DNA from: Clostridiales bacterium
GTDB lineage: Bacteria > Bacillota > Clostridia > Lachnospirales > WQUN01
Direction of reading: 5' to 3'
Length of the DNA: 64,000 nucleotides
NCBI GenBank assembly: GCA_031270945.1
Contig: JAISWZ010000069.1
Coordinates: 1 to 64,000 of the forward strand
The notes under the pieces are model-generated. The model made no database searches. It saw only the letters and a list, made by a program, of their open reading frames with translations, and was not told the origin of the DNA. Below, piece after piece: positions 5,246 to 64,000 of the stretch (positions are counted from its first letter, which is position 1; each line of letters starts with the position of its first letter). Made by a program: the position numbers and the translations under genes.

Positions 5246-6600
5246 GAAAAAGCTTTGCCGCCCCCACGCGATGTGGTCCCGGCTCCTTCTCGCCGAGTAT
5301 TCAACTTATAAAAACTAAGTACCTCGAAGCTTGGCTGCACCGCTACGTACTGGAAGAATTTCACTTCCAGCTTCGAAAGGCACAAAAAAGGCAAAGAAAA
5401 AACTTTGCCGCCCCCACGCGATGTGATTCCTGGCTACTTCCTGCCGAGTATTCAACTTATAAAAACTAAGTACCTTGAAGCTTGGCTGCACCGCTACGCA
5501 CTGGAAGAATTTCACTTCCAGCTTTAAAAGTGCAAAAAAGGCACAGAAAAACCTTTGCCGCCCAAACGCGATGTGGTTCCTGGCTCCTTCCTGCCGAGCA
5601 TCAATTCAAGAGAACCTAAGTACACTGAAACTTAGCCGCACCGCTACGCACTGGAATAATTTCACTTCCAGCTTTAAAAGGCACAAAAAGGCGCAGAAAA
5701 ACTTTTGCCGCCCCCACGCAATGCTGTTCCTGGCTCCTTCCTGCCGAGCATCAATCATGAGAACCTTAAGTACCTTGAGTTCGACCGCACCGCTACACGC
5801 TGGAAGCATTTCACTTCCAGTTTTAAAAGGCACAAAAAAGGCACTGAAAAAGCTTTGCCACCCCACGCGATGAAGTTTCTGGCTCCTTCCCTGTTTCTCG
5901 CTTCCGAGCATTCAACTTAAAAAATCTAAGTACCCTGAGTTCGGCCGCAACGCTATGCACTGGAAGAATTTCACTTCCAGCTTTTAAAAGCACAAAAAAG
6001 GCACAGAAAAACCTTTGCCGTCCCCACGCGTGAGGTTTCCGGCTCCTTCTAACCAAGCATTCAATTTAGAAAACTTTAAGTACCCTACTTAGAGCATATC
6101 CCAAAATTCCGGCAGTGGCGCAGTGAAAGTCATCGCGATGCTTTAACGCGTGACTTTCACAAGCCATAAATTTAATTTTGGGATATGCTCTTAGTACCCT
6201 GAGTTTGGCCGCACCGCTACGCACTGGAAGAATTTCACTTCCAGCTTTAAAGTGCACAAAAAGGCGCAGAAAAACCTTTTCCGCCCCCACGCGATGATGT
6301 TCCTGGCATGTGTTGAAGTTTCTGGCTTCTTCCCTCCGAGCATTCAACTTAAAAAATCTACGTACCCTAAGTTGATCGCACCGCTACGCACTGGAAGAAT
6401 TTCACTTCCAGCTTTAAAAGCACAAAAAAGGCAAAGAAAAAACTTTGCCGCCCCCCACGCGCTGAAGTTCCTGGCTACTTCCTGCCGATCATCAATCAAG
6501 AGAACCTAAGTACCCTGAGGCTATTAGCCGCACCGCTACTCGCTGGAAGCATTTCACTTCCAGCTTTAAAAGGCACAAAAAGGCCAGAAAAAGCTTTGCC
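5246..6600. repeat. Tandem array of repeat A (~150-bp unit, about nine copies)
   Basis: The block AAAACCTTTGCCGCCCCCAC recurs at about 5251, 5401, 5551, 5701, 5851, 6011, 6273, 6441 and 6590. The first four steps are exactly 150 bases. Each unit holds a perfect short hairpin, CTGGAAG-loop-CTTCCAG, a GGCACAAAAAAGGCACAGAAA block and an ATTCAACTTA block. The one long step (6011 to 6273) is explained by a palindromic element inserted at 6089-6193. No ribosome sites or consistent frame, so probably non-coding. Confidence 0.85.
6089..6193. mobile_element. Palindromic element inserted inside a repeat A unit
   Basis: A 105-bp element with arms TTAGAGCATATCCCAAAATT and AATTTTGGGATATGCTCTTA interrupts the AAGTACCCTGAGTT block of a repeat A unit. 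GTACCCT is present on both sides of the element but only once in uninterrupted units. This is the footprint expected of a target duplication. The interior has nested complementarity (GTGAAAGTCATCGCGATGC with GCGTGACTTTCAC). Confidence 0.8.
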
Positions 6601-29340: not shown

Positions 29341-29446
29341 CTAAGAGCATATCCCAAAATTAATTCCATGGCTTGAAAAAGTCACGCATAAAAGCATCGC
29401 GATGACTTTTTCGGCGCCCCAATGGAATTTTGGGATATGCCTTAAT
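29341..29446. repeat. Palindromic element (MITE-like), full copy
   Basis: TAAGAGCATATCCCAAAATT and GGAATTTTGGGATATGCCTT, 106 bp. The inner arms GGCTTGAAAAAGTCACGC and GATGACTTTTTCGGCGCC are also complementary around AAAGCATCGC, giving a long two-part hairpin. It lies between divergent promoters. Confidence 0.85.
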
Positions 29447-48989: not shown

Positions 48990-49096
48990 TTAAGAGCATA
49001 TCCCAAAATTAATCTTAGGGCTTGCGAAAGTCATGCGTTAAAGCATCGCTTTGACTTTCGCTGCGCCACTTGCGGAATTTTGGGATATGCTTTAAG
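48990..49096. repeat. Palindromic element (MITE-like), full copy
   Basis: TTAAGAGCATATCCCAAAAT and GGAATTTTGGGATATGCTTT, 107 bp, with interior AAAGCATCGCTTTGACTTTC. Inner arms GGCTTGCGAAAGTCATGC and GACTTTCGCTGCGCC pair. Upstream of the pyrH promoter. Confidence 0.85.
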
Positions 49097-51929: not shown

Positions 51930-52436
51930 ATGTTCCGGCGCATCGATAAACACCCCGAAGTTTGCATTGATGGGGTTCGCCGCAAGAGGGAGAAATTCAT
52001 AGGATACTGCTGGTGCTCTGACCACAAGGGGTACCTGACCACAAAGCTTCTTAAAGAACATAACTGCCTCGAGAAAAAATGCGTGATGCTCCAGAAGCTC
52101 GAACACAGCTTTTGGACGCAAAGAGATCGGGTAAAGGCCCAAAAGCGGGATGATCCCAGAAAGGCGCAATCCAGCTTGGAGCATGAAGCCCTCGAGTTGG
52201 CCCGGTCTCACACCAAGCTCAGGGCGCAGATAGTAGTTACAAATGTGAAGATACTCAGCGATGACTTAATGCGGGTAGCCTACATAGGCAGCAAAAGCGA
52301 AGACTTGACAGAATTGGCTACCCATTTAGGAAGCCGGTTCGGAAAGCGCGTATGGATAAGGCACGTTCCTAGCGACCCAGCGATTTTGGAGAGTTTGCTC
52401 CAAAAAAAGCAAACAGAGCATAGCGAGGCGAGGTAA
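51930..52436 (+). CDS. Hypothetical protein with a Cys/His cluster
   Basis: 168 aa. The N-terminal half has CIDG, GYCWCSDHKGYLT, KEHNCLEKKCVMLQKLEH, that is six cysteines and four histidines in about 50 residues, which could bind zinc. A charged helical linker (about 80-115) leads to a small alpha/beta C-terminal domain, VVTNVKILSDDLMRVAYIG and FGKRVWIRHVPSDPAI, which might bind RNA or act as a dimer module. I do not recognise the family. The ATG at 51930 follows GAGGTGATG; a frame from 51765 reaches back into element-rich DNA and is rejected. No operon partners. Confidence 0.65.
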   Translation: MFRRIDKHPEVCIDGVRRKREKFIGYCWCSDHKGYLTTKLLKEHNCLEKKCVMLQKLEHSFWTQRDRVKAQKRDDPRKAQSSLEHEALELARSHTKLRAQIVVTNVKILSDDLMRVAYIGSKSEDLTELATHLGSRFGKRVWIRHVPSDPAILESLLQKKQTEHSEAR

Positions 52437-52451
52437 GCCCAAGCAAACAGC

Positions 52452-52634
52452 CTAAAGCAGGCTGACAATCGCTTGTCTACACACTCCGTTTATTTGAATG
52501 ACTTGGACGCCTAAATCTTTGGCCCAAGGATTCGCGCTCGCCAGCCCTGCTTGCATTATTCCATCTTTAACTTGACACTGTACAAGGCGCTTGGCGCCTA
52601 TTCCTTGAACCGCTGCATTTGAGCAGCTTTTCAT
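52452..52634 (-). CDS. Possible 60-aa protein or fragment
   Basis: The frame reads QCQVKDGIMQAGLASANPWA and then KDLGVQVIQINGVCRQAIVS, which looks like real protein sequence. The ribosome site is weak (CTAGGTCG) and the length is short, so it may be the end of a lost gene. No family recognised. Confidence 0.25.
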   Translation of the reverse strand: MKSCSNAAVQGIGAKRLVQCQVKDGIMQAGLASANPWAKDLGVQVIQINGVCRQAIVSLL

Positions 52635-52646
52635 GCGCGACCTAGC

Positions 52647-52681
52647 AGAACAGGACGTTCTGCCGAGTAGAACAGGACGTT
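52647..52681. repeat. Direct repeat AGAACAGGACGTT, two copies
   Basis: The 13-base word stands at 52647-52659 and 52669-52681, next to the right end of the IS605-like element. It may have arisen during insertion or by slippage. Confidence 0.7.
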
Positions 52682-52688
52682 TTAATTA

Positions 52689-52875
52689 GTGACATACCCC
52701 GACCTGTAGAGGCCGTGGCTTCTCGCTCGATAGCCCTTGTTTTTCAGGCTAAGCATAGCGAGCTTCCCCCGTGCGCCCCACGGTCGTCATAGGCGTTGGT
52801 TATCCGCCCAGTTTTTACATCACGGTCGCCCGCCAATTCATCCCACCGCCTTAGAGGCGGGGGAATTATTGGCGG
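52689..52875 (-). mobile_element. IS605-type end with omega-RNA-like scaffold, no tnpB
   Basis: Read on the minus strand the segment runs from a long hairpin (CCGCCAAT..ATTGGCGG outer, CCGCC/GGCGG inner, 52830-52875) through GATAACCAACGCCTATGACG, GGGGAAGCTCGCTATGC, GAGCGAGAAGCCACGGCC to TCTACAGGTCGGGGTATGTCA. The GAAGC..CTCTACAGG..GGGGTA-TCAC ending resembles the 3' end of IS200/IS605 elements, where the TnpB guide RNA (omega RNA) scaffold ends and the guide begins in flanking DNA. No tnpA or tnpB remains. It is therefore a small derivative that might still be transcribed. Recognition is by memory of typical ends, not by alignment. Confidence 0.45.
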
Positions 52876-52890
52876 TTTTGTTAAGCCAGG

Positions 52891-52914
52891 AAAGCGCCCC
52901 ATAGGGGCGCGTCT
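52891..52914 (-). terminator. Terminator after peptide A1
   Basis: GCGCCCC-TAT-GGGGCGC on the minus strand followed by TTTCCT, immediately after the stop codon of the first class A peptide. Confidence 0.75.
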
Positions 52915-52916
52915 TG

Positions 52917-53069
52917 CTAGAACAGCTTGACTATCTGGCCGATGATCGACTGGAATACCGGCACAGCGCTCTTCACGATTGAGAAGAGTCCGCTCAGGAC
53001 TGATATGAAGCTTGCTCCGCCCTTTACTTCACGGGTTTCCATTTCGTTGAGTTCTACTAAGCCTTTCAT
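52917..53069 (-). CDS. Double-glycine leader peptide, class A1 (hydrophobic core)
   Basis: 50 aa. Leader MKGLVELNEMETREVKGG (18 residues) matches the bacteriocin-type double-glycine pattern: hydrophobic at -15, -12 and -4, Glu at -8, Gly at -2 and -1. The 32-residue core (ASFISVLSGLFSIVKSAVP then VFQSIIGQIVKLF) has no Cys, three Lys and one central Pro, so it may form a helix-hinge-helix that acts on membranes. AGGAGG lies 8 bases upstream. It has its own promoter and terminator. A C39-peptidase transporter would be needed for maturation; none is in the window. Confidence 0.85.
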   Translation of the reverse strand: MKGLVELNEMETREVKGGASFISVLSGLFSIVKSAVPVFQSIIGQIVKLF

Positions 53070-53126
53070 TTGAGTCCTCCTCTGCGCTCAATGGCGCGTG
53101 TATGATAATTCGATGTATGCACGAAT

Positions 53127-53155
53127 ATTGTAATCTCGTTGCGGTTTTTTGTCAA
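53127..53155 (-). promoter_or_regulatory. Consensus sigma-A promoter of peptide A1
   Basis: TTGACA (53155-53150), 17 bases, TACAAT (53132-53127) on the minus strand, giving a 50-base leader. The same hexamers, spacer length and following TTCGTGCA block occur before peptide A8 at 63524-63552. Confidence 0.9.
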
Positions 53156-53208
53156 TATCCGATTTTTTTAGACATTCGACAAAAAAAGGCTCAACCGGGC
53201 GCAAAATA

Positions 53209-53232
53209 GGCCGGACACAAATGTGCCCGGCC
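53209..53232 (-). terminator. Terminator upstream of the A1 promoter
   Basis: GGCCGGGCACATTTGTGTCC then GGCC on the minus strand, followed by TATTTT. It isolates the A1 gene from transcription coming from the right. A near copy lies before A8 at 63598-63621. Confidence 0.75.
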
Positions 53233-53235
53233 ATC

Positions 53236-53660
53236 TTCACAAAATTTTCATAATTAAAAATCGCTATTTTGTGCCAATTTTCTTGCTTTTTTCTTTATTA
53301 ATTTATTAAATCCTGCGAAAAATGGGTAACATGCGCCAGCCTTCAGCGTATCGAACAACCGCGAAAGAAAAGCCAGGAAGCCTAGTTTCTTGACAAATCA
53401 CGGAGATTTACAATAGAATCCGGCGCAGCCCCCCTAGAGGGGCCAGGCCAGCTTTTTCAGGCTTGCCCTATGCAGAGATTTCTTTAGATATGAGCGTTCC
53501 CAGCCTCTCTTGCGGCAAAGGCAAATCGGTTATATCGACATTTGCGGCACTTGCGCCAAGCGAAAGCGTGTTCATAAAATCTTTAGCTTGGGCTTGGAGA
53601 GTTATGTCGGCGAGCGCTTGCCGCTAGAAAGCATAGCTGGCGCTAAACGCAGGGGATTGT
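53236..53660. other. AT-rich gene-free stretch with a plus-strand promoter
   Basis: TTGACA (53390-53395) and TAGAAT (53414-53419) are 18 bases apart on the plus strand, followed by the hairpin CCCCTAGAGGGG. No gene with a ribosome site follows on this strand, so the product, if any, is unknown. Confidence 0.45.
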
Positions 53661-53666
53661 ACTTGG

Positions 53667-53744
53667 AGCATATCCCAAAATTAGTTTATTGCGCTGGAAA
53701 AGCATCGCGATGCCTTTTTCAGCGCCTTTGGGATATTCACTTGG
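53667..53744. repeat. Palindromic element, shortened copy
   Basis: GAGCATATCCCAAAATTAGT with TTTGGGATATTCACTTG; interior GCGCTGGAAAAGCATCGCGA and TGCCTTTTTCAGCGC pair well. Confidence 0.7.
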
Positions 53745-53873
53745 CAAAGCTTGCGGGATCAAGCGGTTTCACGGAGGTCAAACATTTTTGACACAACCAG
53801 AACCTTCGGCTTAAGCGTCTGCTCTGATTCCGCGCTCCCAAGCGCCTATAGCGCCCAGGCGCAAAGCGTTTTT

Positions 53874-53972
53874 GAGCATGCCCCGGAATAAGTTTTAGGT
53901 TCAGAAAAGCCACGCCTTAAAGCATCGCATGCCTTTCCCTCGCCTTAACGGAATTTTGGGATATGCATTTAA
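53874..53972. repeat. Palindromic element with a mutated left arm
   Basis: GAGCATGCCCCGGAATAA and GGAATTTTGGGATATGCATT with AAAGCATCGCATGCCTTTCC between. Ends 39 bases from the stop of peptide A2. Confidence 0.7.
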
Positions 53973-54010
53973 TTGCCCGCGTCATCCCTGATGCTCAAGG
54001 CAAGCTATTG

Positions 54011-54166
54011 CTACAAGTTGAATACGTTGCCTAAGAAAGATTTCACTCCTGGCAGAAGCCAGCGTATAACTGAGAAGACCCCGTTAACAATCGCAACCAG
54101 GACCATCTCCGTTCCGCCCTTGACATCGCGGGTCTCGGATTCTGTGAGTTCTACAAGTCCTTTCAT
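54011..54166 (-). CDS. Double-glycine leader peptide, class A2
   Basis: 51 aa. Leader MKGLVELTESETRDVKGG, core TEMVLVAIVNGVFSVIRW then LLPGVKSFLGNVFNL. The central Pro and the ΦΦPxΦ pattern are kept; it has a Trp and two basic residues around the hinge. GGAGGAGG lies 9-10 bases before the ATG. Frames that start further upstream have no ribosome site. Confidence 0.85.
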   Translation of the reverse strand: MKGLVELTESETRDVKGGTEMVLVAIVNGVFSVIRWLLPGVKSFLGNVFNL

Positions 54167-54229
54167 TTGTGCCCTCCTCCGGCGCGTCCTGCGCCTGTTG
54201 AGAATATATTGTCGCAAGCATAATAACAA

Positions 54230-54333
54230 GTGCATATTCCAAAATTATTTTGGAGGCATGGAAATCATTTGCGCAGCGATTTGCCCGAAAACGCAGGGCC
54301 ATGCGGGTTTCAAGAATTTTGGCATATGCGCTA
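54230..54333. repeat. Palindromic element upstream of peptide A2
   Basis: AGTGCATATTCCAAAATTAT and GAATTTTGGCATATGCGCTA; the two changed bases in the arms (TTCC, GGCA) no longer pair, so this is an older copy. Confidence 0.65.
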
Positions 54334-54401
54334 GAAGTCATGGTGCAAAGCTCAACTTGCATAGCTGTTATGATGATCGCACAAATTTAGAATTTTCTTT
54401 C

Positions 54402-54465
54402 TAAGAGCATATCCCAAGCTTTCAGCGTTAAAGCGTTCGCCAGGAATTTTGAGATATGCATTAAT
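54402..54465. repeat. Palindromic element, short 'CATTCGCC'-type copy
   Basis: CTAAGAGCATATCCCAAGCT and GGAATTTTGAGATATGCATT with AAAGCGTTCGCCA between, 64 bp. Confidence 0.65.
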
Positions 54466-54638
54466 TCATGCTCATAGCATAGCTGCCTTCCGGCGGCAAC
54501 AAGCGTCTTGCGGCCTGGGAAAGCCCTAGCGCTTTGAGACGCTAGGCTTCCAGGCAAGAGCGCGACCCGAAATAGCGGCGGCTATAAAACACTTCGGATC
54601 CGCCCTGATCTTGCGAGAAAAAATTTAAATCTAAAACC

Positions 54639-54737
54639 AAGAGCATGCCCCAAGCTCAATTCCATGGCTCACTATTGTTCTGCGTAGACCAACGCAAAAT
54701 CTTGCGCAGCCATTTGCCAGGTTTGGGATATGCCCAA
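54639..54737. repeat. Palindromic element next to peptide A3
   Basis: AAGAGCATGCCCCAAGCTCA and GGTTTGGGATATGCCCAATG. Inner arms GGCTCACTATTGTTCTGCG-like are unlike the two main subfamilies. The right arm ends 4 bases before the A3 stop codon. Confidence 0.6.
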
Positions 54738-54740
54738 TGT

Positions 54741-54896
54741 TTAGAACAATCCGAAGAAGCCATTCACCAACGTTGCGAAGACTGGCACAACGTTCTCAAA
54801 CAGTCCAAGAAGCTGGGCGTAGAACGATGTAAGGAGCGATCCTCCACCCTTCACATCGTGGGTTTCTTCCTGAGTCAGTTCCGTAAAGCCTTTCAT
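54741..54896 (-). CDS. Double-glycine leader peptide, class A3
   Basis: 51 aa. Leader MKGFTELTQEETHDVKGG, core GSLLTSFYAQLLGLFENV then VPVFATLVNGFFGLF. One acidic residue and no Lys or Arg in the core, unlike A1 and A2, so charge is not conserved in the class, whereas VVPVF is. GGAGG lies 9 bases before the ATG. Confidence 0.85.
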   Translation of the reverse strand: MKGFTELTQEETHDVKGGGSLLTSFYAQLLGLFENVVPVFATLVNGFFGLF

Positions 54897-55820
54897 ATTG
54901 GTACCTCCGTGGCGCATAGCGCCTGCTTCTAAATTGCGGCGTAAAATTTTGATGTCCCAGCAATCCTAAAATCAATTCAGGGATGTGCTTATATATAAAA
55001 GATCTTGCAGGGATACGGCCAGTTTTGCTAGCCTATTGCCTGCCCTCCAGCCGGGCGCGGCAAGAAAGCTTTGCGTGAATCTTTTCAGCCTGCGTAATTA
55101 AATAAAATAATAGGACTTGTACTGGAGTTCCTTTTCGTCGAGCTCGCGTAGCCCTCCATGGCGATATATCATGCGCTAGGCAAGCCTTGCCCAGCGAGCG
55201 AATCATAACTGCGCCTTGCTTGCTGATGGCCGCCCGCGAGCGAAAACCGAGGTTTTCACTCGCGGTCCAGCCTTCAGCAAGCGCAGAAAAGCGCTTGACA
55301 CCTGCTTATGAAGAATAGCCCGGATGCGTGTTATTTGTTTCCAAGCAAGAACGTATCCCAAATCGGCTTGATTCTTTGAAAAAAGGCGCCGATAAAGTAT
55401 TTGAGACCGCGCTTGATGCCTCAAATCGGGATGCGCAGTGCGTCGCAGACGAGCTTGCAACTTTGGAGCTCTTTGTTCAAGGCTGCTGCGTCTTCCAGCA
55501 AGACACGGCAACCCCTTTGATGCATTTGCCTTAGTGCTGGCGCTAAACTCTTTTTCCAAGAGTCTTCAAACGCTTCATCCTGCCACATCGGCAGTCTTGC
55601 CAGCAGTTTGGTGGCACTTTAACGCTTTTGCTTGTGATGTAGCGATTGTGAAATGAACAACGGCTCGATTACGCATCAAATTTAATTGAGAATGCAATTC
55701 AGCCAGCGTAGACGAGCTTTCAAGCCTCGGGGAACTCGGTCCCGCGTACAGAACTACTGGCGCGACCCGCTTGTGTCAAGCGGCCTTCAAGCGCCTCATC
55801 CTGCTGGATATCCAGCATTT
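54897..55820. other. Gene-free stretch with the first copy of an 80-bp repeat
   Basis: At 55557-55646 lies the first of four copies of a segment with CAAACGCTTCATCCTGC, CAGTCTTGCCAGCAGTTTGG and CTTGTGATGTAGCG blocks. On the minus strand it can be read into a protein-like frame, DEAFEDSWKKSLAPALRQMH and on to about 55420 (ending CDALRIPI), but later copies are frameshifted, so it is probably a relic. Confidence 0.45.
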
Positions 55821-55928
55821 TTACCAGTAGTAGCGGTACCCGTAGCCGTAGTAGCCGCCCCTGCCGCAGCAGCCACCCTTGTTGTTGAGTTCCTTTTCGT
55901 CGAGCTCGACCAATTTGTTGGTTTTCAT
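55821..55928 (-). CDS. Double-glycine leader peptide, class B1 (Cys/Gly/Tyr core)
   Basis: 35 aa. Leader MKTNKLVELDEKELNNKGG; core CCGRGGYYGYGYRYYW. The leader shares LVEL[DN]E and the KGG end with class A but is one residue shorter between them. The core opens with two Cys directly after GG and ends in Tyr-Tyr-Trp. GGGAGGG lies 9 bases upstream, within the block CTAATGTAGGCTAAATGCC common to B1, B2 and B9. Such composition is known from ribosomally made peptides with modified Cys, but no modifying enzyme is seen here. Confidence 0.8.
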   Translation of the reverse strand: MKTNKLVELDEKELNNKGGCCGRGGYYGYGYRYYW

Positions 55929-56243
55929 TTGCGTAACCCTCCCTGGCATTTAGCCTACATTAGCAAGGCGCTTTAGCGCATGCTTGCAATAGATTAAATA
56001 TGGCTTGCCCAAAATGGATGGCGCGGCTTGCAATTAGCCAAAGCCTGCCTCTTCCGTATTTTGAGACAGCCCTGGTGCTATATCGGGTTGCATTATCAGG
56101 CCATAGCCACAAGATCTTGGCGCTGGAAAGTTCCTCGAAAAGCAATTCTCTCCTGCGCATTTGAACATTTGAGGCACGCCCTTGATGCGTTAAAAATGGC
56201 AACCCATAACGCCAACCAGCTTGAAGCGATGGCGCAAAGCTCT

Positions 56244-56340
56244 TTTTCAAGAGCCTTCAAGCGCTTCATCCTGCTGTTTCCAGCATTCTTGCCATCAGTT
56301 CTGTCAGTTGGCCTTAACGCGCATGCTTGTGATGTAGCGG
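56244..56340. repeat. 80-bp repeat, second copy
   Basis: CAAGCGCTTCATCCTGCTG, CAGCATTCTTGCCATCAGTT and CTTGTGATGTAGCG as in the first copy at 55557. It lies between B1 and B2, and the spacing suggests that gene plus repeat were duplicated together. Confidence 0.65.
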
Positions 56341-56534
56341 TTTCTTGAAATGAATACAGCTCTCCTGCGCTGACAGAGCCATGCAAGTTTGCTCTTTGAA
56401 ATCAAGGCAAACTGTTATAGCCTCAGCGAGGATTTCCTCGCTAAAAGAGCTTTCAAACAATGGAAGCTTTACGGGTGCCCAAATCAAGCGCAAGGCAACC
56501 CAGGCTTGCCACTCCTGCTGGCGAATCCAGCATT

Positions 56535-56642
56535 TTACCAGTAGTAGCGGTACCCGTAGCCGTAGTAGTAGCCGCCACCGCAGCAGCCGCCCTTGTTCTT
56601 GAGGTCCTTCTCGTCCAGCTCAACCAATTTGTTTGTTTTCAT
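56535..56642 (-). CDS. Double-glycine leader peptide, class B2
   Basis: 35 aa. Leader MKTNKLVELDEKDLKNKGG; core CCGGGYYYGYGYRYYW, three residues different from B1. AAGGAGGG lies 8 bases before the ATG. DNA identity with B1 continues into the leader region, so it is a recent duplicate. Confidence 0.8.
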   Translation of the reverse strand: MKTNKLVELDEKDLKNKGGCCGGGYYYGYGYRYYW

Positions 56643-58216
56643 TTGAGTAACCCTCCTTGGCTTTTTAGCCTACATTAGCACAGCGCTTAGCGCTTGCTTG
56701 TAGTTGGTACGTTTCAGGACTTGCAGTTGCCAGTTTTGGTGCTCTGGTGCTTTATGTCAAGGGAAGCCGGGTTATTCGGCGTCCCATATGCAGACTGCCG
56801 TGAGCCGTTGGCGCTGGCCTCTTTTCACGGAGGCTTCAAACGCTTCATTCCGCTGTTTCCAGCAGTCTTGCCAGCAGTTCCGACAGTCGGCACTTAACGC
56901 GCATGATTAGTAAAGAAGTAAAGCCCAAAATCATCAAACTTCGTTGCGATTGCAGATGCTTTTTGTTTCGCCCCAAGATTTGCAAAAGCCAAAAGTCAAA
57001 TCATTGGCCTATGCGCATTTTAGGGAATATTGGGATACACTAAGTTCGCGCAGGCGAGCTTATGCTCGGCCAATTGCCTGCTTCCATCTCCTCGGCTTTT
57101 TGCGCTCACTCTATATTCAGGAAAGCCTTGTTATGCAGACCGCCATGAGCTGTTGGCGCTAGCCTTTTTATAGGTTTCAAACGCTTCATTCTGCTGTTTC
57201 CAGCATTCTTGCCAGCAGTTCCGACAGTCGGCGCTTAAGGCGTTAAAGCTAATTATATTGGCGCAGATAGGTTGGTTGCATATATCAACGTGATCGCTTT
57301 GCCGCTGGCGCGACCCGCTTTTCTCAAGCGGCGCAATTCGCTTAGATCGTCTTGCCAGACATGGCGCGGCATGCCCTCCTTGGCATATTATCCTACATTA
57401 GCATGGCATATAATTGCCCCTGCGTATGAGACGACGCGGTAATAGCCAACTGCGCTTTGCCTTTGCGATTCTTCTTGCACAAGAATCGGATTGTATTTTG
57501 GTGAGCAAACTTTTTTGAGTTTTCTCCGTTTTCTTTAGTATCTAGCGTTTCTTTCTTTTGTGCTTTGCGTTCTTTTCTTTGGCGCTTTAGAGGGCGTTTC
57601 ATTTGTGAGGCTTATGTGCATTAGCTATTGTTTTTTTCTTATGTGCTTGAACTTAGCTTTCCTATGTGCTATAGCTATAGCTTTTCTTATGTGTTTTAAA
57701 ATCTTATGTGTTTTAGGCTCTTATGTGTTTTAATCTCTTATGTGATTTAAACTCTTATGTGTTTTAGGCTCTTATGTGTGTTTTAGGCTCTTATGTGTTT
57801 TAGACTCTTATGTGTTTTAATCTCTTATGTGCTTTAGGCTCTTATGTGCTTTAATCTCTTATGTGTTTTAGGCTCTTTGTGATTTAAACTCTTATGTGCT
57901 TTAAGTCTCTCTTATGTGCTTTAGTCTCTCTTATGTGTTTTAGGATCTTATGTGCTTTAAGCATTTTTCTGCAAGTAAACCGTTGCGCGGATCAAATCCT
58001 TATGTGAAATTTCTTATGTTTTTCCAGCGACACGCCGAGACCGCCATGATCTGCTTGCGCTAGCCCGCATTTCAATCCTGGCGGCCAAGGCATCGCTCTT
58101 AAGTTTTTATAGCCAAGCTCCGTGAACATTGAATGGCGTTTTGCGTATTGGGGGTTCTGGCAAGCGGCTCTTGATGTTGCCGCCAGCCAGTTAAGGTTGC
58201 GCGGAATTCAATGTTC
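56643..58216. other. Gene-free stretch between B2 and B3
   Basis: Holds copies three and four of the 80-bp repeat (56837-56905, 57176-57240), a degenerate palindromic element near 57005-57046, an orphan copy of the class B upstream block with ribosome site (57376-57410) that is not followed by a peptide gene, and a long TTATGTG array (57636-57962). The orphan block probably marks a lost class B gene. Confidence 0.55.
57636..57962. repeat. Tandem array of CTTATGTGTTTTAGGCT-like units
   Basis: About eighteen units of 15-19 bases, each with CTTATGTG followed by TTTTAGGCT, CTTTAATCT or TTTTAAACT. The unit is too short and variable for a CRISPR and no spacers exist. The strand composition is strongly biased: T and G on plus, A and C on minus. 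Confidence 0.9.
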
Positions 58217-58330
58217 TTAGCGCATGTAGTAGTACCCGTCGCTACCTTTGTAGAACACTGGGTAGTAGTAGCCCGTGTGGCAGCAGCATCCGCCTTTGGA
58301 CTGCAGCTCTTTGATGTCAAGTTCTTTCAT
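58217..58330 (-). CDS. Double-glycine leader peptide, class B3
   Basis: 37 aa. Leader MKELDIKELQSKGG (14 residues, a deleted form of the B4-B8 leader), core CCCHTGYYYPVFYKGSDGYY ending YMR. It is the only class B core not ending in Trp and the only one with Lys, Asp and Ser, so it may be diverged in function or decaying. AGGAGG-like site (CAAGGAGGATACGCAA) before the ATG. Confidence 0.75.
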   Translation of the reverse strand: MKELDIKELQSKGGCCCHTGYYYPVFYKGSDGYYYMR

Positions 58331-58418
58331 TTGCGTATCCTCCTTGGGCGTCATGCGCTTCGTCCATTGCTTGCCTTGAGCTTGGCTCCCGCTTGCGATG
58401 GACGCATGTCAGGCGCTT

Positions 58419-58571
58419 TTACCAGTAGTACCCGTAGCCGTAGCCGTAGTACCCGCCGTAATAGCCGCCGTAGTAGCCACCGTAGTAGCCGCCTCCGCAG
58501 CAGCATCCGCCTTTGGTCTGCATGTCTTTGGAGTCAAGCTCCTGCAGCTCTTGCATGCTAAGCTCTTTCAT
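58419..58571 (-). CDS. Double-glycine leader peptide, class B4
   Basis: 50 aa. Leader MKELSMQELQELDSKDMQ then TKGG; core CCCGGG followed by four YYGG-type units and YGYGYGYYW. The DNA of the core is a run of GGCTACTACGGC repeats, so its length can change by slippage; B5 has a different number. GGAGGAG lies 8 bases before the ATG. A frame that begins at 58673 starts inside a palindrome arm and is rejected. Confidence 0.82.
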   Translation of the reverse strand: MKELSMQELQELDSKDMQTKGGCCCGGGYYGGYYGGYYGGYYGYGYGYYW

Positions 58572-58660
58572 TAGTATCTCCTCCTTGGGCATAATGCGCT
58601 TTGTCAGAAACTTGTCGGCAAGGTCGCCTTTGGCTTCTCTTGACAGGGACGCATGGCCAT

Positions 58661-58708
58661 GAGCATAACCCAAAACTAATTCATGGCTGTTTTGGGTTAT
58701 GCATTAAA
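58661..58708. repeat. Mini-palindrome with GCATAACCC arms, copy 1
   Basis: GAGCATAACCCAAAACTAAT and GTTTTGGGTTATGCATTAAA, 48 bp. It matches the large dispersed element at its arms except that TATCCC is TAACCC on both sides, a paired change that keeps the stem. Confidence 0.8.
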
Positions 58709-58725
58709 TGGCCATCAAGCAGTTT

Positions 58726-58875
58726 TTACCAGTAGTACCCGTAGCCGTAGCCGTAGCCGTAGTACCCGCCGTAATAGCCGCCGTAGTAGCCGCCGCCGTG
58801 GCAGCAGCATCCGCCTTTGGACTGCATGTCTTTGGAGTCAAGCTCCTGCAGCTCTTTCGTGTTCAACTCTTTCAT
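58726..58875 (-). CDS. Double-glycine leader peptide, class B5
   Basis: 49 aa. Leader MKELNTKELQELDSKDMQ then SKGG, identical to B7 and B8; core CCCHGGGYYGGYYGGYYGYG then YGYGYYW. Compared with B4 it has three YYGG-type units and an extra His after the Cys triplet. Same ribosome site as B4. Confidence 0.82.
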   Translation of the reverse strand: MKELNTKELQELDSKDMQSKGGCCCHGGGYYGGYYGGYYGYGYGYGYYW

Positions 58876-58963
58876 TAGTATCTCCTCCTTGGGCATAATG
58901 CGCTTTGTCCGATGCTTGCTGGCAAGTAGCCTTTGGCTTCTTTTGCCAGTGACGCATGGCCAT

Positions 58964-59006
58964 GTGCATAACCCAAAATTAACGGAATTTTGGGTTATGC
59001 ACTAAA
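58964..59006. repeat. Mini-palindrome with GCATAACCC arms, copy 2
   Basis: GTGCATAACCCAAAATTAAC and GGAATTTTGGGTTATGCACT almost touch (43 bp). Lies between B5 and B6. Confidence 0.85.
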
Positions 59007-59023
59007 CGGCCTTCAAGCGGTTT

Positions 59024-59140
59024 TTACCAGTAGTACCTGTAGCCGTAGTAGTAGCCGCCGCCGTGGCAGCAGCACCCGCCTTTGGACTGCACGTCTTTGG
59101 AGTCAAGCTCCTGCAGCTCTTTCGTGTTTAACTCTTTCAT
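59024..59140 (-). CDS. Double-glycine leader peptide, class B6
   Basis: 38 aa. Leader differs from B7 by one residue (DVQ for DMQ before SKGG); core CCCHGGGYYYGYRYYW. GGAGGAG site as in its neighbours. One of three nearly identical genes in a row. Confidence 0.82.
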   Translation of the reverse strand: MKELNTKELQELDSKDVQSKGGCCCHGGGYYYGYRYYW

Positions 59141-59229
59141 TTGTGTCTCCTCCTTGGGCATAGTGCGCTTTGCGCGATACTCGCTGTCAAGAAAGCCTTT
59201 GGCTTCACTTGCCAGTGACACATGGCCAA

Positions 59230-59287
59230 GAGCATAACCCAAAATTAATTAGGCTTAAAAAAGCCGAATTTTGGGTTATGCACTAAA
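59230..59287. repeat. Mini-palindrome with GCATAACCC arms, copy 3
   Basis: GAGCATAACCCAAAATTAAT and GAATTTTGGGTTATGCACTA around GGCTTAAAAAAGCC, which forms its own small hairpin. 58 bp. Confidence 0.85.
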
Positions 59288-59304
59288 CGGCCGTCAAGCG
59301 GTTT

Positions 59305-59421
59305 TTACCAGTAGTACCTGTAGCCGTAGTAGTAGCCGCCGCCGTGGCAGCAGCACCCGCCTTTGGACTGCATGTCTTTGGAGTCAAGCTCCTGCAGCTC
59401 TTTCGTGTTCAACTCTTTCAT
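59305..59421 (-). CDS. Double-glycine leader peptide, class B7
   Basis: 38 aa, core CCCHGGGYYYGYRYYW, identical in protein to B8. The repeated unit (gene, leader and mini-palindrome) is about 281-284 bases in this part of the cluster. Confidence 0.82.
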   Translation of the reverse strand: MKELNTKELQELDSKDMQSKGGCCCHGGGYYYGYRYYW

Positions 59422-59510
59422 TTGTGTCTCCTCCTTGGGCATAATGCGCTTTGCGCGATACTTGCTGGCAAGAAAGCCTTTGGCTTCACTTGCCAAAGAC
59501 GCATGGCCAA

Positions 59511-59571
59511 GAGCGTAACCCAATAATAATTCATGGCTTAAAAAAGCCGGAATTTTGGGTTATGCGCTAAA
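59511..59571. repeat. Mini-palindrome with GCATAACCC arms, copy 4
   Basis: GAGCGTAACCCAATAATAAT and GGAATTTTGGGTTATGCGCT around GGCTTAAAAAAGCC. The left arm has two mismatches. 61 bp. Confidence 0.8.
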
Positions 59572-59588
59572 TGGCCGTCAAGCGGTTC

Positions 59589-59705
59589 TTACCAGTAGTA
59601 CCTGTAGCCGTAGTAGTAGCCACCGCCGTGGCAGCAGCATCCGCCTTTGGACTGCATGTCTTTGGAGTCAAGCTCCTGCAGCTCTTTCGTGTTCAACTCT
59701 TTCAT
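59589..59705 (-). CDS. Double-glycine leader peptide, class B8
   Basis: 38 aa, same protein as B7 with a few silent differences, which suggests that the protein sequence is under selection. Ribosome site GGAGGAG. First gene of the B4-B8 tandem set in the direction of transcription. Confidence 0.82.
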   Translation of the reverse strand: MKELNTKELQELDSKDMQSKGGCCCHGGGYYYGYRYYW

Positions 59706-59944
59706 TTGTGTCTCCTCCTTGGCGTATTATAATGCCCCAAGGCACCTAGAGCCATATCCCAATGTTCACGGATGCGCGAAGCCGTCACGATGCTCGTGCT
59801 TGGCAATCGCAAGCCATAAAACGATTTGGGACATGTTTTGCAGGTGAGCCATTGGGGAACTGCCCTTAGACTCATTAGTAAATTTCGTGTTGGATTTGCG
59901 GGCAAAACGGCCTTCAAAGGGCTTCAGTCTGCCAATCTGGACTT

Positions 59945-60127
59945 TTACCAGTACCCATACCCGAAGCCGTAGCCGTAGCCAAAGCCTCCAAAGAAAGCTG
60001 GGGCAGGGACAAAGCGAACAGGGGCAAGGATCACAGGCGCGAACATTACGGGCCTGCAGCAGCAGCAGCATCCACCTTTAGACTGGAGATCCTCGGCGTC
60101 TAATTCAACCAAGTTATTTAAGTTCAT
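59945..60127 (-). CDS. Double-glycine leader peptide, class B9 (five-Cys variant)
   Basis: 60 aa. Leader MNLNNLVELDAEDLQSKGG keeps LVELD and KGG; the core starts with five Cys in a row, continues with a Pro/Val-rich segment (RPVMFAPVILAPVRFVPAPA) and closes with FFGGFGYGYGFGYGYW. It is the longest and most complex class B peptide and joins the B1/B2 leader type to the B4-B8 core type. AGGAGG lies 7 bases before the ATG. Confidence 0.8.
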   Translation of the reverse strand: MNLNNLVELDAEDLQSKGGCCCCCRPVMFAPVILAPVRFVPAPAFFGGFGYGYGFGYGYW

Positions 60128-60817
60128 TTTATAACCTCCTAGGCGTGTTAGCCTACAGTAGCAAGTTGTTAAGGTGCTTGGCCAAAGCGAGGCAACCGCG
60201 CCTCTAAATGCTTCAGCCTATCATTTGTAAGGGTATTGCGTCCGCTTGCGAAGCTAAGTATAGGCGCCCCAAGCGGATCCCCAATCGGAGCGCCGCCTAG
60301 GGCAAGTTCCAGCGCTTGTTAGGCGCAGTGAGTATCCATCCGTGACTTGGACAAATACTTAGCGCATATCCAAAACTTGATTTTGGGATATGCTCTTATG
60401 TCCGTGTTCTGTCTCACCATTTGGCTGCGGGATTGCGCATGCCGCTTTTTGTCGTTGGCCAAAGCCAGTTCAGATGACGCAAGCATGCGCAATTCGGCCT
60501 AGCTTGCAAGAGTTTCACATAACTAAGGGCCGCCAGCCAATCGGTGCTGCTTGGAATGCGCTTTTTATCGCGAAACGTTAGCCATGAAAACTGTTGGCAA
60601 TAAAAGCTAGTGAAAAAGCAGGATAATCGGCAAACCCGGTGCTAGCAGGCGGACGCACGGAGAGCGGCAGCCGCGTTAGCGCTGGCAGTAGGCGTTGTGC
60701 CTTATCGAGCTTCGTTGCAAAGCAAAACCCCATCGCTTGCGGATGCATAATATCGCTCACCTTTATGCCACGTTCCCATGCCCATTGCCCGCTATTAAAA
60801 GCGCGCTTGTCTGGGCC
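60128..60817. other. Gene-free stretch with one short palindromic element
   Basis: The element at 60359-60399 (GCGCATATCCAAAACTTGAT with ATTTTGGGATATGCTCTTA) has lost its interior. Bases 60718-60817 resemble 61400-61500 (CGCTTGCGGATGCATAATAT and GCGCGCTTG blocks), part of a duplicated unit with the class A genes. Otherwise nothing recognisable. Confidence 0.45.
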
Positions 60818-60973
60818 TTACTTCGACGCCGCAAACGCTCCAAGCCAAGATTGTATCGTTGGGATAAGAGCCTTGAAAACGACAATGAGCCCGTCCAAAA
60901 CCACTCCGAAGTCGAACGCTCCGCCTTTGACTTCCATGCTCTCAGTCTCGCTGAGTTCTACTAAACCCTTCAT
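60818..60973 (-). CDS. Double-glycine leader peptide, class A4
   Basis: 51 aa. Leader MKGLVELSETESMEVKGG, core AFDFGVVLDGLIVVFKALIP then TIQSWLGAFAASK. Shares EVKGGAF[DN]F with A5 and A6. The core is more polar at its end than the others. AGAAGGAG lies 6-7 bases before the ATG. Confidence 0.85.
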   Translation of the reverse strand: MKGLVELSETESMEVKGGAFDFGVVLDGLIVVFKALIPTIQSWLGAFAASK

Positions 60974-61108
60974 GTGAATGCTCCTTCTGGCGCCGTTATG
61001 GCGCTTTCTAATCAATGGCGTTGAAATGTCATGTCTTGGGCGCTATGCAAAGCGCGCTAGTTGAGGCTGCCTCAACCTAATAAGGCCTTGCCTCAACCCG
61101 TCGGGGCT

Positions 61109-61264
61109 TTACAGCAGCCCGAAAAGCCCTCCGAACAACGTCTGCACTGTTGGGACGATGTTCTTGGCGAGGGAAAAGAGCCCGGTGAAAAGCGACCCGA
61201 AGTTGAACGCTCCGCCTTTGACTTCCATGCTCTCGATATCGCTGAGTTCTTCTAAACCCTTCAT
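61109..61264 (-). CDS. Double-glycine leader peptide, class A5
   Basis: 51 aa. Leader MKGLEELSDIESMEVKGG, core AFNFGSLFTGLFSLAKNIVP then TVQTLFGGLFGLL. It differs from A6 mainly by conservative changes. Same ribosome site as A4. Spacing from A4 is about 290 bases. Confidence 0.85.
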   Translation of the reverse strand: MKGLEELSDIESMEVKGGAFNFGSLFTGLFSLAKNIVPTVQTLFGGLFGLL

Positions 61265-61501
61265 GTGAATGCTCCTTCTGGCGCCACTTTGGTGCCATCT
61301 AATCTATGATGCCGACTTGCGCCGGGTTTGCTGCTTGCAATGCGAATGCATAGCTTTGGTGGCGCGCCGCTGTCTCTGCAAGAGAAGCGCAAGCCAACCG
61401 TCACAACTTTATAGGGCTAGGCGAATCCATAGAGCAAAACTCAGCGCTTGCGGGCGCATAATATCTATTATAAACGCTATGCAACGCGCGCTTGCCGGGC
61501 C

Positions 61502-61657
61502 TTACAGCAACCCGAAAAGCCCTCCGATCAACGACTGAATCGTTGGAACGATGTTCGTGACAAGAGAGAAGATTCCACTCAGAATCGACGCGAAATCAAA
61601 CGCTCCGCCTTTAACTTCCATGCTTTCGGTATCGGTGAGTTCTACTAAGCCCTTCAT
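61502..61657 (-). CDS. Double-glycine leader peptide, class A6
   Basis: 51 aa. Leader MKGLVELTDTESMEVKGG, core AFDFASILSGIFSLVTNIVP then TIQSLIGGLFGLL. No basic residue in the core. The downstream 100 bases resemble those after A4, so the unit of duplication includes flanking DNA. AGAAGGAGG region precedes the ATG. Confidence 0.85.
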   Translation of the reverse strand: MKGLVELTDTESMEVKGGAFDFASILSGIFSLVTNIVPTIQSLIGGLFGLL

Positions 61658-61756
61658 AAAGAATCCTCCTTCTGGCGCCCCTTTTCGGCGCCTTTTGACC
61701 TATAATGCCGGCTTCGCATCCTGCTGAACCGGTGCTCGTTTAGAGCAAAAACAGCT

Positions 61757-61914
61757 TTGAAGCATATCCCAAATTTTATCTTAAGGCTTAGTGCATATCC
61801 CAAAATTCCATTAAGGCGCCGAAAAAGTCATCGCGATGCTTAAACGCGTGACTTTTTCAAGCCATGGAATTAATTTCGGGATATGCTCTTAAAGAATTTT
61901 GGGATATGCGCTTG
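61757..61914. repeat. Palindromic element with doubled arms
   Basis: Two left arms (AAGCATATCCCAAATTTTAT and GTGCATATCCCAAAATTCCA) and two right arms (AATTTCGGGATATGCTCTTA and AATTTTGGGATATGCGCTTG) surround a full interior (GAAAAAGTCATCGCGATGC with GCGTGACTTTTTC). One element seems to have inserted into, or beside, another. Confidence 0.8.
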
Positions 61915-62245
61915 ATGGTGTGCCGCTGTCTCTGAGCGCGCAAAAAATAAATGGGGCAGAAGCGATAGCATAACCGTCACAGCTTTGTTAGGCTAGGCCA
62001 TCCAGAATTCAGGCAAGCGTAAACGCCGCTCGCTGTGTGCTAATTCTGACGGGTCTTGGGTTGTGTGCGCTTTGGCAGAGGAAAGATGGACGACACGAGC
62101 GAATCAAGCTCGCCATGCTTGTCGAGACGGCGCAGGGCGCGACACCGCGCTTGCCCGAATCAAGCGGCAACTCTTTCAATGCTCGCCAAAATCCGCTCAA
62201 TCGACCGCCGAAACAAAGCGCGCCGCAGTTCGGCAAAGAGCTAGC

Positions 62246-62398
62246 TCAGTCGAAGATTCCGGTAAACACCGACCTCAATGTTGGGAAGATGTTCGTTATA
62301 AGCGAGATCGCGCCGTTGATGAGAGAGAAAAACAGATCAACAGTGCCACCCTTAACCTCGCGACTCTCTGCTTCGTTAAGTTCTACAAAGCCCTTCAT
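62246..62398 (-). CDS. Double-glycine leader peptide, class A7
   Basis: 50 aa. Leader MKGFVELNEAESREVKGG, core TVDLFFSLINGAISLITNIF then PTLRSVFTGIFD. Ends in Asp, unlike the others. Ribosome site AGAAGGAGG before the ATG. Closest relative by leader is A1. Confidence 0.85.
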   Translation of the reverse strand: MKGFVELNEAESREVKGGTVDLFFSLINGAISLITNIFPTLRSVFTGIFD

Positions 62399-63303
62399 TA
62401 ATAGCCTCCTTCTGGCGCTCAGCGCCAAATAAAAGATTAGCTTTAGTTGTATAGCGGGGGCGCAACACCCAGGTTTAGCAAAGCCAGAGAGCAATACGCC
62501 ACGAACATGAAAAGATCTGGCGCTTTAAAAAACTTGGGTTGATTGCGCCGGCGCCCGATGCGCCGCTCAGCGGCTGCAATTCAGGGCGCCAAACCGCCAT
62601 GGCTCTTGGCTGGCGCTTGAGGCGCGTAGCGCTAAAATCTTTTAAGGCAAGCTTGAGTTAACCCTAAGCCAGCTTCACTGTTTCAAAAGGCGTGACCGGG
62701 CGCCGTCGTGATTGGCATAGGGCGCTTCATGCTGCGCCGCCTGGCAAGATCCTCAAGCGCAAACCAAAAACAATTTATTTACCGCGCTTTAGGCGCGACA
62801 CATTTGAGATTCAGCTGCGCATTGGCTAGAAGCCTGGAACGGCTGCTAGCATTTATCATTGGCTTGGAGCGTATCCCGAACTCTTTAGAGTTTTGGTCTC
62901 GAGTTTTGGTTTCTTGTTTTGGTTTCGAGTTTTGGGACAGCCTTCAGTGATCCGTATATTTCTTGATGCAAACTGATCATTTGCCGACAGATTATGCTAT
63001 CTACGGCATTAGCTGAAGCCAATCCAAATTTGTGTTCAAGTACATTCATAATTGGCTTTGACGGCGCTGCCATCGCAGGGCAGTGAATTAGATTTTGCCA
63101 GTCTTCGGCGAATATGATGCTTGATTGATGCAACAGCCTCGAGCAACGTGCACACCGATGGGCACGGCTTGACGCTCTTTGACGCAATGCATGCGCGGCC
63201 TTGCACAAGGCTGGCTTGCGGCGGATGGCTGGCGATTAGCCAGCGATTCAAATTCAGAGCCGCTACAAAGCCGAACCTTTTTACTGGCGCCTCTTGCGGG
63301 TGT
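62399..63303. other. Gene-free stretch
   Basis: No supported gene or full element. One lone left arm (GGAGCGTATCCCGAACTC) at about 62866-62883 is followed by three TTTTGGTTTCGAGTT-like blocks (62891-62938). GC-rich alternation of GCGCC at 62550-62600. Confidence 0.4.
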
Positions 63304-63462
63304 TTAGACGAATACCATCAGGATTCTGCCAAACAACGGCTTGAGCCCAGGCAAAACGCTTGTTACAATGGTAAAGATACCAGCAAGCAGTTCCGGCACA
63401 CATACCGTGCCGCCTTTGACTGAGCGCAACTCGTTTTCATTTAGTTCGACTAAGCCCTTCAT
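63304..63462 (-). CDS. Double-glycine leader peptide, class A8
   Basis: 52 aa. Leader MKGLVELNENELRSVKGG, which fits the canonical ELxxxEL pattern best of all (Leu at -7). Core TVCVPELLAGIFTIVTSVLP then GLKPLFGRILMVFV; it has a Cys and a second Pro near the start, both unique in class A. GAAGGGGG lies 5-6 bases before the ATG. It has a consensus promoter. Confidence 0.85.
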   Translation of the reverse strand: MKGLVELNENELRSVKGGTVCVPELLAGIFTIVTSVLPGLKPLFGRILMVFV

Positions 63463-63523
63463 TCGCATCCCCCTTCTGGCGCTACCGCGCCGACTTAATA
63501 GCAAATGTCATGTCTGCACGAAG

Positions 63524-63552
63524 ATTGTATTATTAACGCACACATTTGTCAA
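63524..63552 (-). promoter_or_regulatory. Consensus sigma-A promoter of peptide A8
   Basis: TTGACA (63552-63547), 17 bases, TACAAT (63529-63524) on the minus strand, followed by CTTCGTGCAGACAT. This matches the A1 promoter region in hexamers, spacing and early transcribed sequence. Confidence 0.9.
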
Positions 63553-63597
63553 CGGGTCGGCGATATAGGTCGAAACCTAAGAAATGGCGTCAAAATA

Positions 63598-63621
63598 GGC
63601 CGGACACGATTGTGCCCGACC
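63598..63621 (-). terminator. Terminator upstream of the A8 promoter
   Basis: GGTCGGGCACAATCGTGTCC then GGCC on the minus strand, followed by TATTTTG. Together with the promoter it forms a cassette that repeats the one before A1. Confidence 0.75.
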
Positions 63622-63839
63622 TGTTTCACAAAAAGTTCATGATTGACTCTTTGGCTAATTTACGCCATTCTTTGTCATAATTCTGAATTTCGGCAGAATA
63701 TGGATATAAATCGCGAATCCTGGCTTAGAATTCCCAATTTTTTTGCGTTGAGCGATCATTAACTCGCATTTTGGCCCGGGTTGCCCCCTCTCAGCCCCTA
63801 AAGCGCAGGGGGGTGCCCTTGTCCATAGCCCATAACGCG

Positions 63840-63924
63840 CTGGGGCAGCGCTATAAAAGTCCTGAGAATGCTTCAATGCTGGGCTTTTCAGCGCCCTGAA
63901 ACAATTTTGGGATATGCTCTAAAC
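63840..63924. repeat. Palindromic element, right part
   Basis: The right arm ACAATTTTGGGATATGCTCT is intact, with AAAAGTCCTGAGAATGCTTC and GGGCTTTTCAGCGCCC before it. The left outer arm is not recognisable. Confidence 0.6.
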
Positions 63925-64000
63925 CGTGGCTTTGTCTATGCTCTTAGCTTAGGTTTTTCGAGTGTCCTAGCCGCCAGAATATTTTTTTGCGTTATTCAAC

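Follow-up and report, generated by a model that had tools for sequence, protein, structure and literature searches.

What are the seventeen short genes that crowd the minus strand between positions 52,917 and 63,462 of the DNA analysed here? This stretch of 64,000 nucleotides (the window) corresponds to positions 1-64,000 of an 86,136-bp contig, C717, of a Clostridiales genome, G000, which is 8.8 Mb in size, is divided over 725 contigs and is 76% complete. All of the genes seem to encode peptides behind a double-glycine leader, and our preferred answer, to which we give a probability of about 0.5 from sequence comparison, is that they form an unmodified, class II bacteriocin-like arsenal whose export machinery lies dispersed elsewhere in the genome.

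The seventeen open reading frames (ORFs) with strong ribosome sites that the initial annotation had placed here are all present on the strand given, and they divide into two classes. The eight class A precursors have a canonical double-glycine leader (common pattern MKG[LF]xEL..E...VKGG) and a hydrophobic core, predicted to be helical, whose annotated length of 32-34 residues agrees with our computed lengths. The nine class B precursors (common pattern ELD...KGGCC) have Cys-first cores of 16-41 residues; their description as Gly/Tyr-rich holds for eight, the exception being B9, whose core is rich in Pro, Val and Phe in the middle and has GYG as its tail. Leaders across the array are 14-22 residues long. 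The precursors are as follows:

52917-53069, minus strand: A1 precursor, leader MKGLVELNEMETREVKGG, core ASFISVLSGLFSIVKSAVPVFQSIIGQIVKLF
54011-54166, minus strand: A2 precursor, leader MKGLVELTESETRDVKGG, core TEMVLVAIVNGVFSVIRWLLPGVKSFLGNVFNL
54741-54896, minus strand: A3 precursor, leader MKGFTELTQEETHDVKGG, core GSLLTSFYAQLLGLFENVVPVFATLVNGFFGLF
55821-55928, minus strand: B1 precursor, leader MKTNKLVELDEKELNNKGG, core CCGRGGYYGYGYRYYW
56535-56642, minus strand: B2 precursor, leader MKTNKLVELDEKDLKNKGG, core CCGGGYYYGYGYRYYW
58217-58330, minus strand: B3 precursor, leader MKELDIKELQSKGG, core CCCHTGYYYPVFYKGSDGYYYMR
58419-58571, minus strand: B4 precursor, leader MKELSMQELQELDSKDMQTKGG, core CCCGGGYYGGYYGGYYGGYYGYGYGYYW
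58726-58875, minus strand: B5 precursor, leader MKELNTKELQELDSKDMQSKGG, core CCCHGGGYYGGYYGGYYGYGYGYGYYW
59024-59140, minus strand: B6 precursor, mature part CCCHGGGYYYGYRYYW
59305-59421, minus strand: B7 precursor, mature part as in B6
59589-59705, minus strand: B8 precursor, mature part as in B6
59945-60127, minus strand: B9 precursor, leader MNLNNLVELDAEDLQSKGG, core CCCCCRPVMFAPVILAPVRFVPAPAFFGGFGYGYGFGYGYW
60818-60973, minus strand: A4 precursor, leader MKGLVELSETESMEVKGG, core AFDFGVVLDGLIVVFKALIPTIQSWLGAFAASK
61109-61264, minus strand: A5 precursor, leader MKGLEELSDIESMEVKGG, core AFNFGSLFTGLFSLAKNIVPTVQTLFGGLFGLL
61502-61657, minus strand: A6 precursor, leader MKGLVELTDTESMEVKGG, core AFDFASILSGIFSLVTNIVPTIQSLIGGLFGLL, core modelled as one helix
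62246-62398, minus strand: A7 precursor, leader MKGFVELNEAESREVKGG, core TVDLFFSLINGAISLITNIFPTLRSVFTGIFD
63304-63462, minus strand: A8 precursor, leader MKGLVELNENELRSVKGG, core TVCVPELLAGIFTIVTSVLPGLKPLFGRILMVFV, weak Bacteriocin_IIc match

To find such genes we used a strict scan demanding a Shine-Dalgarno site, a start codon, an acidic leader, a hydrophobic or small residue at -4, GG and a core of 10-110 residues. It recovered 14 of the 17 genes in 52,001-64,000, where 200 shuffles (order-2 Markov model of the same stretch) gave a mean of 0.035 and at most 1, and returned no match in the remainder of the window or in the following 20 kb. B1 and B2 failed the filter because of Asn at -4 and A8 because of its AGGGGG site, and the class profiles recovered all three. 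Genome-wide, both profiles found the array only, all remaining matches having E values of 0.4 or worse. We are nearly certain that the members are real genes. A survey of both strands in 52.4-65.4 kb for ORFs that span 25 codons or more and have a strong ribosome site, in which weak-site genes could be missed, returned nothing beyond the array genes, and thus no immunity or modification gene is visible among them.

We then asked whether the leaders follow the rule known for C39 peptidases. PCAT1 and its relatives recognize the consensus L(-12)xxxE(-8)L(-7)xxxxGG, position -4 determines specificity, and Leu at -7 matters for PCAT1, ComA and LahT (PMC6959990). All eight class A leaders have L-12, E-8, V-4 and GG. 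When the class A profile was compared with the PDB, the sole match was the leader of CtA, the PCAT1 substrate, at a very weak E value of 0.48. Class A peptides are probably C39 substrates. In class B, GG is likewise present in all nine leaders and is followed directly by an invariant CC. That double-glycine leaders head these precursors is therefore upheld, and the proposal that they are all of a type cut by C39 peptidases fits class A.

A C39 transporter had been expected beyond base 64,000, but no C39 gene is present anywhere on the 86,136-bp contig, its remaining 22 kb included. The genome itself does encode such transporters: two C39 genes are located on other contigs, C707 and C662. Contig C707 carries a TIGR01193-type transporter (544.6 bits against a cut-off of 523.85) followed by a HlyD-like protein. 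The closest solved relative of this transporter is PCAT1 (4ry2, E 3e-183), to which it aligns end to end, and its C39 active site is intact (Q10, C16, H94, D110). The PCAT1 groove residues A55, I59 and G135 correspond to A50, L54 and I130 of the C707 protein (numbering from our alignment). The first two make the contacts to L-7 and L-12 in PCAT1, and I130 is in the position that reads -4, so that an Ile would meet the invariant V-4 of class A, a pairing as in LahT. The second gene, on C662, is an NHLP exporter (TIGR03796, 955.7 bits against a cut-off of 853.3); it is part of a complete NHLP-type export system (L004:5215-14860) with TIGR03796, TIGR03797 and HlyD-like components, and a radical S-adenosylmethionine (SAM)/SPASM gene is located about 3 kb away.

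Relatives also point to the C707 transporter. A C707-like pump occurs in 10 of 38 genomes of the taxonomic family, and the genomes in which our profile search gave credible class A-like genes (the source genome, G141, G157 and G172) all belong to these ten. At least one double-glycine gene flanks 27 of the 38 named loci around C707-like pumps, compared with 3 after shuffling. Because of the PCAT1 alignment, the groove residues, the co-occurrence in relatives and these flanking genes, C707 probably supplies the class A pump. Whether class B would use the same pump is more doubtful, and we put its chances somewhat below even.

The mechanism that we propose starts from what the sequence contains, namely seventeen translatable precursors in two classes together with a PCAT1-type exporter and a HlyD-type partner on C707. 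The C39 domain would bind the class A leader through L-12, E-8, V-4 and GG, cleave after GG and export the 32-34-residue core. Each class A core would then act on the membranes of competitors as one long hydrophobic, weakly amphipathic helix. Class B peptides would be companions from the same locus, exported by the C707 pump or by the second (NHLP) pump, and might act as partners linked through disulfides or metal, or else as surface peptides.

Modelling of class A is consistent with this. AlphaFold2, run with an eight-sequence alignment, placed a leader helix at residues 9-15 and a single core helix at 22-50 (mean pLDDT, the predicted local distance difference test score, 71; core blocks 78-84), and the hydropathy of the cores is 1.1-1.6. 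A membrane-acting helix would fit this model. In a PF10439 scan of all eight class A precursors, A8 scored 19.1 bits against a gathering cut-off of 27.1 and the other seven had no match. On balance, we consider action of class A against other bacteria slightly more likely than not.

Several observations weigh against such an arsenal. Bacteriocins are typically cationic, whereas the class A cores have a net charge of only -1 to +2, and position -7 is Thr or Ser in seven of the eight class A leaders and Leu in one. The LxxxEL-like motif of class B (9/9) is located at -11/-7/-6, one residue nearer GG than in the PCAT consensus, and its -4 residue is polar (N, S or T); for these two reasons it is uncertain whether a normal C39 peptidase would process class B, which conforms only loosely to the leader type proposed for the whole array. 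The C707 pump sits on a separate contig from the array, no adjacent immunity gene was recognised in the ORF survey of 52.4-65.4 kb, and the genome is only 76% complete.

The same leaders and pumps could serve communication. C39 pumps also export pheromones of the ComC/BlpC type, and the peptides could be cell-to-cell signals that are cut by C39 and perceived through either a kinase or a receptor in the cytoplasm. A class A relative in G172, a congener of the source genome, weakly matches the ComC and BlpC families, in keeping with this idea. Seventeen diverse cores, three of them identical copies, are unexpected for a signal with one receptor, and since the survey of strong-site ORFs in 52.4-65.4 kb gave nothing beyond the array there is no regulator there (no genome-wide search for ComD-type kinases was made). 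We consider signalling rather improbable compared with the bacteriocin-like arsenal.

Could class B be modified after translation? Its invariant CC after GG, its Tyr/Gly-rich cores and its non-canonical leader would suit precursors of ribosomally synthesized and post-translationally modified peptides (RiPPs), with an unlinked enzyme, such as a radical SAM protein making Cys thioethers or Tyr cross-links, and export through the NHLP system on C662. The genome has 49 radical SAM matches, among them the gene near the NHLP exporter. None of the 49 is on C717, and the 86-kb contig lacks a modification gene altogether, although such enzymes had been anticipated beyond base 64,000; enzyme and precursors would thus be unlinked. 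Nor did the 76%-complete genome yield a match to YcaO (PF02624), the mark of linear azole-containing peptides, or to a LanC-like cyclase (PF05147), the mark of lanthipeptides, and a lanthipeptide or azole product was dropped as a candidate on these scans. Class B cores lack Ser and Thr except in B3, and class A cores lack Cys except in A8. The members tested matched no Pfam or NCBIfam model of the NHLP/Nif11 precursor family, and the short leaders of class B are not of the long type found there. Taken together, modification of class B in this way seems unlikely, if less so than signalling.

Class B could also supply building blocks of a surface or matrix, cross-linked through Cys or Tyr, rather than antimicrobials. 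Most of its members consist of 25-43% Gly and about 45% aromatic residues, and the repetition of an identical 16-residue core in B6, B7 and B8 suggests gene dosage. This idea draws on resemblance only, a structural protein of this length would be very short, and a cross-linking enzyme was not found nearby; we regard it as about as improbable as the signal.

How did the array arise? Tandem duplication on one strand, as initially annotated, is borne out. B4-B8 are located in related tandem repeats with units of 281-304 bp:

58983-59722, minus strand: 281-bp tandem repeat with class B genes, 2.6 copies, 95% alike; a related 304-bp register starts at 58417

B6 and B7 lie within the 281-bp repeat, and the mature sequences of B6, B7 and B8 are the same. 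The class B repeat unit includes a variant of a hairpin element that is dispersed through the genome. This inverted repeat of about 95 bp, with ends GCATATCCCAAAATT ... AATTTTGGGATATGC, has 370 copies in the genome by its exact-end pattern and none in 37 other family genomes, the congener included, and it looks like a REPIN/MITE-type element (a repetitive extragenic palindromic or miniature inverted-repeat transposable element). The window has 33 sites of GGGATATGC, for example 6094-6188, 29347-29440 and 48996-49090. Between B2 and B3, at window positions 57,685-57,962, there is also a 17-bp tandem repeat, TCTTATGTGTTTTAAGC, with about 16 copies and an 87-bp higher order.

In class A, divergence since duplication is concentrated in the cores, as had been claimed: the mean proportion of nonsynonymous differences (pN) is 0.22 in leaders and 0.46 in cores, and pooled ratios to synonymous differences (pN/pS) are 0.31 and 0.68, ratios that are approximate because pS is near saturation (~0.7). 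Leaders are thus conserved relative to cores. Upstream of the class A genes we identified these elements:

53084-53097, minus strand: GC hairpin directly 5' of the A1 ribosome site
53127-53155, minus strand: sigma-70-like promoter TTGACA-17-TACAAT upstream of A1 (sequence pattern)
54181-54195, minus strand: GC hairpin 5' of the A2 ribosome site
54911-54923, minus strand: GC hairpin 5' of the A3 ribosome site
60990-61004, minus strand: GC hairpin 5' of the A4 ribosome site
61279-61297, minus strand: imperfect hairpin, one mismatch, 5' of the A5 ribosome site
61674-61692, minus strand: GC hairpin 5' of the A6 ribosome site
62413-62427, minus strand: GC hairpin 5' of the A7 ribosome site
63478-63491, minus strand: GC hairpin 5' of the A8 ribosome site
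63524-63552, minus strand: sigma-70-like promoter TTGACA-17-TACAAT upstream of A8 (sequence pattern)

A short GC hairpin whose end lies 2-3 bases upstream of the ribosome site satisfies a strict rule in seven of eight class A genes, the eighth having one mismatch; shuffles gave 0.11 of 8 and control genes 1 of 46. We dropped the hairpin as an array-specific regulon marker, as the GGCGC..GCGCC dyad is common across the genome (68 matches compared with 6 in the backward control). Because of this frequency, we can do no more than suggest that the hairpin acts in translation or RNA stability. No known RNA family came near its gathering score in the cluster. The promoters match 11 of 12 positions at a plausible distance, and a 59-bp comparison of the regions upstream of A1 and A8 shows them to be 83% alike. 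The region has 15 promoter-like sites where 10.1 are expected (standard deviation 2.7), and the count alone is unremarkable.

These data bear on a further possibility, that tandem duplication has left behind an array that is decaying or neutral and of which few members are expressed. The wide intergenic gaps, the repeats and dispersed elements between genes, the restriction of the 11-of-12 promoter to A1 and A8 and the contig without a pump would agree with decay. All 17 frames are nevertheless intact with a ribosome site, the class A leaders have the low pN/pS of 0.31, and the hairpin before the ribosome site is kept in 8/8 class A genes despite differences in the loops. Decay is thus very improbable, and an array maintained as a bacteriocin-like arsenal remains our preferred reading. 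Directly upstream of the array, on the minus strand at C717:65,350-74,762, is a Druantia type I-like defence set comprising DruE (1826 bits), DruD and DruB, with one unmatched gene in between.

Does anything similar exist elsewhere? No close homologue of class A was confirmed in GTDB genomes scanned with a single leader pattern, among viral contigs or, for A6 only, among plasmids. With the class A profile, 246 genomes of the order gave distant, leader-driven matches only, several of them doubtful, and for class B nothing convincing appeared in the viral scan or in 391 genomes of the class. G133 was dropped as a precursor genome since its profile match came without a recognisable precursor gene. 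The congener G172 has hydrophobic-core and Cys-Cys-first precursors on the same strand, 1.1 kb apart; profile comparison related them to class A with 93.5% probability, via the leader, and to class B weakly (46.9%). We tentatively suggest that class B represents a distinct family of exported peptides, with a shifted-motif double-glycine leader and a short Cys-Cys(-Cys)-first, mostly Gly/Tyr-rich core, and that it forms a two-part system with class A in a lineage of large-genome Clostridia related to termite-gut bacteria. The two genomes of the genus (G000, G172) measure 7.7-8.8 Mb, compared with 1.7-3.7 Mb in the other listed family genomes. A termite-gut origin of the source genome is likely, though inferred.

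If class A and class B peptides are exported, the locus would present eight natural variants of a single helical core, all behind a near-constant leader, and would inform what a single C39 pump accepts. Class B would probe how much tolerance C39 peptidases have for the spacing between motif and GG. The description of the peptides as 'combinatorial' finds no support in the data here.

Among known systems, PCAT1/CtA of Clostridium thermocellum (4ry2, 6v9z; PMC6959990) is similar in the full-length alignment of its pump with C707, in groove residues that are conserved or conservatively replaced and in the L-12, E-8 and GG of its leader. It differs in having one substrate instead of many, and here the pump is on another contig, class A leaders have T/S at -7 and the spacing in class B is one residue shorter. 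Class II bacteriocins (PF10439, TIGR01847/TIGR03949) share the short precursor, the GG leader, the hydrophobic core and a C39 pump with a HlyD-type protein in the genome. They differ in that only A8 matches PF10439, below the cut-off, that no immunity gene was recognised and that no counterpart was found for the class B cores. In G141, a different genus of the same taxonomic family, a PCAT-HlyD pair whose pump has 46% identity to ours is immediately preceded by at least seven double-glycine genes (L043, G141:C47, 7465-9837). These tandem genes mostly have hydrophobic cores and include two long Cys-rich precursors; unlike ours they adjoin the pump, have longer cores and lack a Cys/Gly/Tyr class. 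The initial annotation could not match the array to a named family, but it does resemble a known kind, the double-glycine precursor arrays of cyanobacteria, where C39-linked clusters have 1-16 precursors each (PMC3140520). Both are dense and very diverse in their cores. The cyanobacterial precursors come from the NHLP, Nif11 and other families and have processing genes nearby, whereas leaders here are short and of two distinct classes on a contig without a processing gene. Provided that both classes are exported, the locus would rank with the largest arrays of double-glycine precursors, sixteen being the maximum of the cyanobacterial survey (PMC3140520).

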